A stretch of DNA of 34,307 nt, from positions 1 through 34,307 of IMG/VR virus record IMGVR_UViG_3300042154_000130. One strand, 5' to 3'. Below the pieces are notes generated by a model that worked only from the letters and a program-made list of their open reading frames with translations, was not told the DNA's origin and made no database searches. Of the stretch, positions 6,800 to 18,799 are shown piece after piece; the stretch's first letter is position 1; each line of letters starts with the position of its first letter. Both the position numbers and the translations under genes were made by a program. Origin of the DNA: a virus.

Positions 6800-8176
6800 A
6801 TGGCTATTAATTTAACTGGTGGATTACCACCCGAAATTTTAGGTCAGCAACAAGCATTAAACCGCCAGCAACAAATGGCACAGGCTTTGATGCAACAAGG
6901 TATGCAGCAACCACAAGGCCAAATGGTTAGTGGTCGTTATGTTGCACCTAGTTTCTTCCAAAACATACTGCCTTTAGCGCAAATGTACGCTGGCACACGC
7001 ATGGCTGAAAAAGGCGATAAACAAGCATTAGAACTAGCCAAACAATTGCGTCAAGTTTATGGCAATGAAATTAAAGAGTTTCGCAACCTTATGCAAGGCA
7101 GAGAAGAACTTGCACCTGAACAAGCAGGGCCAACACAAACTGGTCAAGCTATTCCTCAAGAAATGGTACGGGGCGCACCCAATGTACAAGGTGCTTATGA
7201 CTTTGCTGCAAGTGCTTCTAACCCTGCATTGCAAGCAGTTGGCATTAAAAACTTAACTCCTGAAGCCTTTACTTTAAATGAAGGCGCAAAACGCTTTATG
7301 ACTATGCCTGATGGCACTTCTAGAGAAATAGCTGCTGGCGGTCAAAAGCCCCGTGCGCCATTGCAAATTGATACTGGTACTGCTATTGAATTGCGTGATC
7401 CTAACAATCCTACAATCGTATTGCAGCGTATTCCTAAATCTATAAGCCCTGCTGATGCTGCTAGGATGCAATTTGAAGGTATAACTGGTGGTGGTATGCC
7501 TATGGGTAACGCACCTGCTGGCGGTATGCCAATGGCTAATGCGCCACAGCCACCAAAAAACAACTTTACTCCTGCCGTACAGCCGCAATATCAATACAAT
7601 CCGACTATATCGCCAAAAGCAAACCAAGAAGCAGCAGCTAAATTTAGCGATGAGTTAGCAAAAAATCAACGAAACGCTAAAGACAGCTTTGATTTAATGA
7701 AATCAGCTTCAACTTTGTTAAGTTCAGAAGCACCAAGTTCAGGAAGATTGTCTAATATTGTTACTGGCACTAGAGAGTTTTTTGGTGGCGGTGGAGAAGC
7801 ATCTAAAGCTGATGCACGATTAAATCTGTTGTCAGGTGCTTTGACAATGAAGCAACCACGATTTGAAGGCCCACAAGGCGTTCTTGATGTGATCTTGTAC
7901 CAAAAACTTGCTGGCGATTTAGGTAATCCAAACATTCCAATTGCTTCCCGTTTAGGAACTATTGAAGAAATGATTGATTTGCAGAAAAAATATTACCCTG
8001 AAGGTGATTGGGATAGCATTAGCACAAAAACTAAAGGTGATACCCAAACGCAAGCTGCTAGATCGGCTGGCAAAGTTTCTGTTGGCGCACCGCAATACGC
8101 TGTTAATCCAACAACGGGTGAGCGCATAGTGTCTACGGATGGCGGTATTAACTGGAAACCAACGGGGAAAAAGTAA
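6800..8176 (+). CDS. putative internal virion (ejection) protein
   Basis: This 458-residue protein begins three bases after the previous stop. The N-terminus is Gln/Met-rich (about residues 14-45) and leads into a helical part with QMYAGTRMAEKGDKQALELA. Later come a Gly/Met/Pro-rich linker (about 228-255) and an Ala/Ser-rich helical region. The last 40 residues look like a separate small beta tail (YAVNPTTGERIVSTDGGINW). Length, composition and location between the tail hub and the fibres fit an internal virion protein. The stop TAA overlaps the next ATG by one base. No enzymatic motif is seen. Confidence 0.6.
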   Translation: MAINLTGGLPPEILGQQQALNRQQQMAQALMQQGMQQPQGQMVSGRYVAPSFFQNILPLAQMYAGTRMAEKGDKQALELAKQLRQVYGNEIKEFRNLMQGREELAPEQAGPTQTGQAIPQEMVRGAPNVQGAYDFAASASNPALQAVGIKNLTPEAFTLNEGAKRFMTMPDGTSREIAAGGQKPRAPLQIDTGTAIELRDPNNPTIVLQRIPKSISPADAARMQFEGITGGGMPMGNAPAGGMPMANAPQPPKNNFTPAVQPQYQYNPTISPKANQEAAAKFSDELAKNQRNAKDSFDLMKSASTLLSSEAPSSGRLSNIVTGTREFFGGGGEASKADARLNLLSGALTMKQPRFEGPQGVLDVILYQKLAGDLGNPNIPIASRLGTIEEMIDLQKKYYPEGDWDSISTKTKGDTQTQAARSAGKVSVGAPQYAVNPTTGERIVSTDGGINWKPTGKK

Positions 8177-15928: not shown

Positions 15929-15938
15929 TCTATCTCAC
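15929..15938 (-). promoter_or_regulatory. shared leader motif GTGAGATAGA before gene 15694-15927
   Basis: On the minus strand GTGAGATAGA ends one base before the start codon. The same ten bases occur before 18596 and 18843, and a one-mismatch form before the leftward gene starting at 17758. The GGUGA-like core could pair with the extended anti-Shine-Dalgarno sequence, so this may be a translation signal. A binding site for a regulator is also possible. Confidence 0.55.
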
Positions 15939-15957
15939 TTTTAGTTAAAGTAAAAAC

Positions 15958-15986
15958 AGAATAATTAAGTTATCTTAATTCGTCAA
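15958..15986 (-). promoter_or_regulatory. leftward promoter with operator filling its spacer
   Basis: On the minus strand the order is TTGACG (-35, 15981-15986), 17 bases, then TATTCT (-10, 15958-15963). The -35 box matches the sigma70 consensus at five of six positions and the -10 box at four. The 17-base spacer contains TTAAGATAACTTAA, which is the perfect palindrome TTAAG-N4-CTTAA at 15965-15978. A repressor bound there would exclude RNA polymerase. It drives the three genes 15927 down to 15123. Confidence 0.75.
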
Positions 15987-16161
15987 GCAGAATGTGACAA
16001 AAAGCAACAGGGCAGTATTTGGCAGTTGCTATCAATGGGCAGGAAAGCCGCAAAATTACCCAATTACTGCATCCTACTGTGGCGGCTTAACGCCCTACTG
16101 AGGTGGGCGGTAGTCCCGTGAAGGAGTATAGATTTTGTCTAAACCCACCGCCCATACCCCA
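15987..16161. other. non-coding gap with several inverted repeats
   Basis: No gene is seen between the two leftward groups. AGCAAC (16003-16008) pairs with GTTGCT (16025-16030). TGGGCGGT (16104-16111) pairs perfectly with ACCGCCCA (16147-16154) and encloses TAGA/TCTA (16129-16132 and 16138-16141). There is no T-run after the long stem on either strand, so it is not a standard terminator. It may be a processed leader or part of another RNA. Confidence 0.4.
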
Positions 16162-17883: not shown

Positions 17884-18105
17884 ATGAACGCAACTGCAAT
17901 AATTAAACTTTTAGGTGGCCCAACCCGTATATCCAAGCTGGTAGGGGTTTCTGTGCCTGCGGTTTCTATGTGGCAAAACGGTGAGATACCAATGGATAAG
18001 CTGGTGATCCTTGCTGCAACATTAGAAAAAGAATCGCACGGGCTAATTACTCGTAAAACCTTATTTCCGCACAACCATAAATTAATTTGGCCTGAATTGG
18101 AATAA
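17884..18105 (+). CDS. Cro/YdaS-like helix-turn-helix transcription regulator
   Basis: This 73-residue protein has a Cro-type DNA-binding domain. Residues 14-33 (TRISKLVGVSVPAVSMWQNG) form the helix-turn-helix, and EIPMDKLVILAATLE follows as the closing helix pair. Small Cro-like proteins bind short palindromes as dimers. Five TTAAG-N4-CTTAA sites occur in the window, two of them flanking this gene's divergent promoter region, so this protein is the best candidate to bind them. There is no CI-type partner with a cleavage domain and no integrase. Start ATG 17884 coincides with the predicted transcription start. Confidence 0.82.
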   Translation: MNATAIIKLLGGPTRISKLVGVSVPAVSMWQNGEIPMDKLVILAATLEKESHGLITRKTLFPHNHKLIWPELE

Positions 18106-18124
18106 GTTGTTGTACAATTAAATT

Positions 18125-18480
18125 ATTGAGGACTGAAACACTCGATAAGTAGGGATTTAGAGGTGACTTTGTGGGTTTAGGAAATAAGATAAGAGGTATT
18201 TTCTAAGCCGTTTCAGCATAAAGCCACCCCTAAATTCCTTTTTTCTTGCCCAGTCCACAATCGTACTCCAAACGATATTAAGCACCTAACTGGGTGGCGT
18301 GGAATAGAACATGGGCTGGTTTACACCTGACAGCAAGCCCCGTAGCCTTGAGTGGGGACTACACAAGTTACAAGGACAATGGTGATAGACAACCTTGTAT
18401 CGAATGAACACTACCTTCGGGAGCATTAGTTCAAGATCAACTTCTTGAATGGATGGGGTGCTATCACCTTTGGGATACCT
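18125..18480 (+). ncRNA. large structured RNA candidate with possible pseudoknots
   Basis: No gene fits between 18106 and 18595, but the sequence is dense in complementary segments. P1 is 18125-18135 with 18251-18261 (ten pairs, one A-A mismatch). P2 is 18152-18165 with 18225-18238 (thirteen of fourteen, one G-U). P3 is 18177-18186 with 18197-18206. CTGAAAC (18133-18139) pairs with GTTTCAG (18210-18216) across P2, a pseudoknot partly competing with P1. In the 3' half: 18260-18264/18272-18276, GGGCT/AGCCC (18313-18317/18336-18340), TACAAGG/CCTTGTA (18369-18375/18393-18399), a CC-UUCG-GG loop (18414-18421) and TTCAAGA/TCTTGAA (18430-18436/18443-18449). Loop bases 18381-18388 pair perfectly with 18461-18468, a second pseudoknot. 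G-U pairs and the UUCG loop favour the plus strand. tmRNA and RNase P signatures are absent. Family and function are unknown. Confidence 0.66.
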
Positions 18481-18524
18481 ATGACTAAAAAACAACACTA
18501 GGGAAACTACCTATAAAATAAATG

Positions 18525-18553
18525 TTGCATTGTTAAGTTATCTTAACTAAACT
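18525..18553 (+). promoter_or_regulatory. rightward early promoter with operator filling its spacer
   Basis: TTGCAT (-35, 18525-18530) and TAAACT (-10, 18548-18553) are 17 bases apart. The spacer holds GTTAAGTTATCTTAAC (18532-18547), whose core is the perfect TTAAG-N4-CTTAA palindrome. This is the same architecture as the leftward promoter at 15958-15986. It should drive the early rightward block from 18596. Confidence 0.72.
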
Positions 18554-18571
18554 GGTGTTACTCAATAACGA

Positions 18572-18581
18572 GTGAGATAGA
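18572..18581 (+). promoter_or_regulatory. shared leader motif GTGAGATAGA before gene 18596-18799
   Basis: This is an exact copy of the ten-base motif found before 15927 (minus strand) and 18843. Here it is 14 bases before the ATG and a separate AAAAAGGAG ribosome site lies between, so the motif does not serve as the ribosome site at this gene. Confidence 0.55.
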
Positions 18582-18595
18582 AAAAGGAGCATCAA

Positions 18596-18799
18596 ATGAC
18601 TACTACATACACCATCCAAATTGTTCACGGTTCAGGCAATTTTTATCCAAATCATGAGTTTGTAACTTATGAAACAAATGTAATTGCTAATAATTACGAT
18701 GAAGCTATTAATTTGGCAGAGAAAAAATATTTTGCTGAAGAATTGCCATTTATGACTAATTTGGCAAAAATTTACGGCATGAGTTTTTACCAAATTTAA
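18596..18799 (+). CDS. small early protein of unknown function
   Basis: This 67-residue protein is the first gene of the early rightward block, with a strong ribosome site (AAAAAGGAG, 6 bases before ATG). It starts with a beta-like segment (TTYTIQIVHGSG) and has a helix with NYDEAINLAEKKYFAEE. No family was recognised. Its position right behind an operator-controlled promoter suggests early expression, perhaps against a host function. Confidence 0.6.
   Translation: MTTTYTIQIVHGSGNFYPNHEFVTYETNVIANNYDEAINLAEKKYFAEELPFMTNLAKIYGMSFYQI

Follow-up and report, generated by a model that had tools for sequence, protein, structure and literature searches.

Two adjacent structured RNAs, separately conserved among related phages, in front of the early operon of a freshwater phage

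Introduction

Small RNAs near the junction of a regulator gene and an early operon are familiar from phages, and the P4 CI immunity RNA and the C4 antisense RNA are examples that act by antisense pairing. Much more elaborate structures also occur in phage genomes, such as GOLLD and ROOL, which are pseudoknotted structured RNAs of unknown function (PMC12286853). The window analyzed here, a virus record of 34,307 bases that represents a freshwater phage genome, has 490 bases without a plausible plus-strand gene, running from a Cro-like regulator gene to the first early gene (18596). The regulator matches P22_Cro at 1.2e-6, under the Pfam cut-off, and the early operon includes a replication initiation protein. 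The gene-free stretch had been predicted from its letters to hold one large RNA with two possible pseudoknots. Here we compare it with related viral loci, which divide it into two RNAs.

Results and Discussion

Two RNA modules between the regulator and the early operon

For positions 18106-18500 the plus strand has a folding energy of -116.8 kcal/mol (z -3.20), which none of 100 shuffles equaled, and the minus strand folds less well (z -1.61). The original prediction had favored the plus strand and is borne out in this; G-U pairs are also tolerated on that strand. It had found no matching family either, and indeed neither module matches Rfam: there were zero matches at gathering thresholds in the whole window, and at E<=10 only microRNA models below threshold and a single sRNA, matched by chance, were returned for 18000-18620.

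Using the neighboring exonuclease as a query, we recovered 80 related viral loci. Both the regulator and the early leader could be located in 61 sequences (window included; 51 distinct), and the gap between them is always occupied, by 375-906 nt that sort into families with only parts in common. Searches with an A2 pattern and with a module 1 core pattern, which gave 80 viral contigs and at least 120 matches, respectively, enlarged this set. By comparison of these copies, the stretch is two adjacent RNA modules on the plus strand, each separately conserved and with a real structure, and the boundary lies at about 18245-18260 (Table 1). The prediction of a conserved pseudoknotted phage RNA outside the listed families therefore holds, but that of one large RNA gives way to two modules.

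Table 1. Features of the gene-free stretch and its borders, in window coordinates.
Feature	Position	Strand	Support
Cro-like regulator gene, just 5' of the RNAs	17884..18105	+	phrog_35 transcriptional repressor, 1.2e-8
-10 hexamer TACAAT, module 1 promoter	18113..18118	+	fixed spacing across copies
Module 1 (sequence type a), small RNA with a pseudoknot and a terminator	18124..18244	+	27 distinct copies, covariation
5' hairpin P1 (18124-18130/18141-18147), loop = pseudoknot 1 5' strand	18124..18147	+	97.2% paired
Pseudoknot 1, 5' strand (partner 18210-18216)	18133..18139	+	covariation
P2 long terminator stem (18151-18173/18217-18239), tip = P3 (18174-18186/18197-18209)	18151..18239	+	conserved
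Pseudoknot 1, 3' strand (partner 18133-18139)	18210..18216	+	covariation
T-run (TTTTTT), intrinsic-terminator-like end	18239..18244	+	T-runs close the stem in alignments A1 and A2
Module 2, type A2, ~214 nt, nine short helices and two pseudoknots	18261..18474	+	46 distinct copies
A2 pseudoknot a, 5' strand (partner 18300-18303)	18267..18270	+	covariation
A2 pseudoknot a, 3' strand (partner 18267-18270)	18300..18303	+	covariation
A2 pseudoknot b, 5' strand (partner 18461-18468)	18381..18388	+	inner 5 bp invariant
A2 pseudoknot b, 3' strand (partner 18381-18388)	18461..18468	+	inner 5 bp invariant
Candidate early promoter TTGCAT-17-TAAACT, 3' of both RNAs	18525..18553	+	read from sequence

In the 27 distinct copies of module 1 that share the window's sequence type a (48 pairs), 98.3% of 1286 cells are paired and 22 of the 48 pairs are double-changed, with 92 double-change cells compared to 22.1 +/- 4.0 after shuffling (0/500). 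These counts are not probabilities, as the shuffles ignore relatedness, but a slid control that keeps relatedness agrees with them, at most 52% of its cells being paired. Type b (40 copies) gave 95.6% pairing, double changes in 31 of 49 pairs, and 268 double-change cells compared to 78 shuffled. The loop contact predicted at 18133-18139/18210-18216 is a 7-bp pseudoknot paired in 100% of the type a cells, with five of its seven pairs double-changed in the 27 copies, and all seven are double-changed in type b. An extra pseudoknot was observed in type b alone, where it is 79.8% paired in a gappy alignment. Stems P2 and P3, drawn originally at 18152-18165/18225-18238 and 18177-18186/18197-18206, are both conserved in the relatives and reach the longer limits of Table 1. 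The outer stem P1 (18125-18135/18251-18261) is not conserved; its 5' strand pairs locally instead, in the hairpin of Table 1, where three pairs are double-changed in the 27 copies. The outer stem reached 6 bp or more in 11 of 29 type a copies compared to 8.2 expected from swapped partners, a count that 119 of 1000 swaps attained.

A covariance model of module 1 (R1) scores the window, itself in the training set, at 130.6 bits. Because the type a model also picks up type b copies, at 48-66 bits, we regard the two types as one family. In types c, d, and e the same architecture was recognized by inspection, and the module 1 layout was also found upstream of RF02932-like copies without a profile match in 19 of 75 cases compared to 3 of 375 dinucleotide shuffles, in a search that recovered 49 of 50 positive controls and whose criteria were fixed after seeing examples. 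Judging from these alignments, the architecture of module 1 is constant while its sequence, and the pseudoknot above all, is rewritten with compensation. At three loci (L083, L201, and L202), the 3' strand of pseudoknot 1 in the same copy recurs in the linker that follows the T-run, giving 9-bp matches, as if an alternative pseudoknot partner were on offer.

Module 1 is also arranged like a small RNA gene. The best -10-like hexamer ends 5-9 nt 5' of the hairpin in 86 of 88 distinct copies, and at exactly 6 nt in 61, a promoter at a fixed distance from the 5' end as far as its -10 goes; the commonest hexamer is TATACT (53 copies), and no consensus -35 is visible upstream in the 88 copies. This spacing is kept across several gene contexts, with copies sitting behind the regulator, a glycosyltransferase-like gene, or a PAPS-reductase-like gene (gene names by eye). 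A glycosyltransferase-like gene, also named by eye, lies between the regulator and module 1 in L015, L027, and L054. At the other end, a GC-rich stem is followed by a T-run in alignments A1 and A2, and such T-runs recur in types a-e. A generic promoter and terminator scan of the window reported nothing at its threshold, neither the module 1 terminator nor the candidate early promoter; its terminator loop limit is 8 nt. The type b model finds module 1 in 23 of 24 records, generally as one sense-strand copy each, and in two of the 24 there are copies near both ends; as the records were picked for holding such loci, this is a check of copy number rather than a survey.

The second RNA, module 2 of type A2, is supported in a similar way. 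In 46 distinct copies (53 pairs), 96.9% of 2434 cells are paired, 24 pairs are double-changed, and there are 189 double-change cells compared to 44.9 +/- 5.9 shuffled (0/500). Slid versions are at most 44% paired; the structure was drawn from the window and the alignment and is thus favored over them, which leaves the double changes unaffected. Pseudoknot a is paired in 100% of cells, with two of its four pairs double-changed. Pseudoknot b, predicted at 18381-18388/18461-18468, is conserved as well (93.5% paired in the 46 copies), but its inner five pairs are invariant, with variation in the outer three, so that no covariation information comes from the inner part. A distant copy, L002, has by eye a compensated version of pseudoknot b, GATGATGAT/ATCATCATC, at the same place. 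The A2 model (R3) reaches this copy at 22.3 bits (E 3e-4) and scores the window, again part of the training set, at 266 bits. The UUCG loop that had been pointed out is upheld (18416-18419), with UUNG in relatives.

The search for DNA similarity to known phages returned only a 51-base match, located in the query region outside the RNA, in GenBank record MW202753 (Manatee Spring). This match led to a distant pair of the two RNAs, as the record holds a module 1 (89.7 bits) with A2 directly behind it. MW202753 has a baseplate wedge gene and the window a portal of phrog_12082, and the two are unrelated-looking phages that share both RNAs. A hypothetical protein, UOF81610.1, is annotated over module 1 and A2 (MW202753 32238-32669; L002 2972-3403) and is probably not a real gene. 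An exact search for the A2 pattern came back empty across 84,980 bacterial genomes, the exonuclease was not found in bacterial genomes by a search that reaches close relatives, and plasmid searches gave no matches.

Downstream of both RNAs, the candidate early promoter overlaps the palindrome GTTAAGTTATCTTAAC (18532-18547), and two relatives (L106 and L131) have TTGACA-17-TAAACT at the same site. Just 5' of it is a small hairpin, AGGGAAACTACCT (18498-18516), with apparent compensation in relatives, which may be where the module 2 RNA ends. In relatives, the early promoter/leader sequence (18500-18596) is repeatedly found a second time, in opposite direction, upstream of leftward genes, ~200 nt beyond the end of the exonuclease (about 15930-16160 in the window).

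An exchangeable slot behind module 1

Across 125 distinct sequences, the position behind module 1 is occupied by A2 in 64 cases, X2/F2 in 31, E2 in 20, D2 in seven, and otherwise by singletons. Its four main classes are thus A2, two other types unlisted in Rfam, and RF02932 (Betaproteobacteria-1), which is E2 and scores 101-108 bits in the sister phages L004, L017, and L030. Consensus folding with RNAalifold gave 10 double-changed pairs for X2/F2 and five for D2, from small sets in which such counts are weak. Searches of known phages for E2 and X2 found none. Copies of A2 that are 91-98% identical follow type a in the window and type b at other loci, which means that the two modules exchange independently.

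The other classes provide insight into what module 2 is. X2 is preceded by module 1 in 93 of 93 cases. A -10 stands just 5' of the first E2 helix in 23 of 57 loci without module 1, compared to 2 of 50 behind module 1. Of 75 E2 loci that lack a module 1 profile match, 22 have an upstream gene with a Toprim-like motif, and 16 of these 22 genes end 90-100 nt before the RNA core, near the start of the RNA; the four upstream proteins that were tested are DNA primases by profile. Taken together, these patterns suggest that module 2 is the RNA to be made. In L276 (about 7868-8075), L280, L300, L304, L332, and L360, which are GC-richer phages, the RF02932-like RNA starts immediately after the stop of a Toprim DNA primase gene; contig names suggest that L276, L280, and L332 are isolate genomes. 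In L043, which has the same slot as L017, an HNH-endonuclease-like ORF (by eye) separates the E2 RNA from the conserved AAAAAACAACACT flank behind it, the only such ORF seen in the slot. We considered an intron on account of this frame; the reading had no Rfam support and no copy was seen within a coding gene, and group I, group II, and HEARO-type models did not match in the window.

Proposed working of the unit

The arrangement suggests that module 1, in the phages that have it, lies between the promoter and module 2 and that its terminator would act as a gate. In our reading, which we hold at just short of an even chance, the unit would consist of a promoter, a knotted RNA, a terminator, and a second RNA, and would serve early or replication control. 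Host RNA polymerase would start at about 18124 and make module 1, a compact RNA of ~121 nt that would be closed by the loop pseudoknot and end at the T-run. A fraction of transcription would read past the terminator and produce module 2 (A2), which would act in early or replication control, with module 1 being both a stable small RNA and a gate that restricts the supply of the second. The gating step is drawn from the gene order and from the finding that no separate -10 was seen between the modules, and the occurrence of E2 without module 1 in many phages indicates that the gate is not obligatory. We further propose, tentatively and with more doubt, a widespread two-RNA module of uncultured phages, in which an RNA of constant architecture, rewritten with compensation, precedes a slot that exchanges unrelated large structured RNAs. 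If true, such a module would correspond, in noncoding form, to a cassette for immunity or replication specificity, and RF02932 would gain a biological setting.

The lack of a second -10 also leaves room for a read-through transcript over both modules, and the stretch could then be one continuous RNA of ~350 nt in which the T-run is the base of an internal helix and pairing between the 5' end and the linker closes the module 1 domain. The complementarity of these two parts exceeds that of swapped partners in type b (mean 6.83 bp compared to a maximum of 6.57 in 200 swaps), with matches such as GGCAGA/TCTGCC and AAGCGGA/TCCGCTT, which gives room for an alternative longer fold and would fit a single longer RNA, as would the adjacency of the two modules in all X2 loci. 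However, the same pairing is at chance level in the window's type a, T-runs follow GC-rich stems throughout types a-e, module 2 also occurs alone with its own -10, and the two modules are swapped independently. We consider a single RNA unlikely, though worth keeping in view.

A replication link is suggested by the gene neighborhood, and module 2 might itself be a replication RNA, either a primer or an origin transcript, with its supply tuned by module 1 and its types representing replication specificities. E2 lies directly behind Toprim primase genes in many phages, the early operon of the window has its replication initiation protein, and in L077 a module 1 of type e, a fifth sequence type, has a DUF1376 / O-like replication initiator gene immediately behind it and no module 2 in between. 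This is evidence of neighborhood, however, and replication genes belong to early regions anyway. The change in GC skew is no greater than gene direction gives, and the skew is uninformative about an origin because the genes turn at that point. We judge this explanation to be distinctly unlikely.

The hypervariable yet perfectly compensated pseudoknot 1, together with a constant promoter where the early region begins, would also be compatible with a decoy or antidote RNA against host defense, with a pseudoknot that would vary so as to fit or evade partners in the host. There is a precedent in phage PhiTE, where a pseudoknot RNA allows the phage to escape ToxIN (PMC3475682). Compensated drift of a purely structural helix also explains the variation, though, and the decoy role seems improbable. 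A transcription attenuator or riboswitch of the early operon is less credible still, and very improbable: a hairpin, a pseudoknot, and a terminator do lie between a promoter and downstream genes, but the candidate early promoter is downstream of both RNAs, and mean column identity is 81% for type a and 70% for type b, with unrelated types beyond, which is not the conservation expected of an aptamer. Chance folding, or a DNA-level element without RNA function, is contradicted by the covariation in types a, b, and A2 and by the G-U pairs on the plus strand and can practically be dismissed.

Comparison with known systems

Regardless of how the unit works, the analysis adds two covariation-supported phage RNA families that are new to Rfam, places the orphan family RF02932 in a definite slot of phage early or replication regions, and describes RNA modules that are shuffled like gene cassettes. 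It also raises the question of whether pseudoknot 1 is purely structural or whether its sequence determines a specificity.

Module 1 shares its -10, compact body, GC-rich stem, and T-run with an ordinary small RNA gene that ends at an intrinsic terminator, but differs in that the terminator stem is knotted to the loop of the 5' hairpin and that a second structured RNA stands behind it. The P4 CI and C4 RNAs occupy a comparable junction, but here the candidate early promoter comes after the RNAs, and none of the Rfam models, that of C4 among them, gave a match. The likeness to GOLLD and ROOL that had been raised does not go beyond that of a phage RNA of unknown role: there was no match at E<=10, and these RNAs are far larger (659 nt for ROOL env-120 and more than 800 nt for many GOLLD RNAs) and are commonly, though not universally, near tRNA islands, whereas the window has zero tRNA genes. 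The closest known RNA in position is RF02932, a structured RNA of phage regions that takes the place of A2 behind module 1 in sister phages. The window's A2 gives no match to its model, either at the threshold of 49.4 bits or at E<=10 in 18000-18620, and the sequence and helices differ; RF02932-like RNAs are also found at loci that lack module 1, where a primase gene often precedes them.
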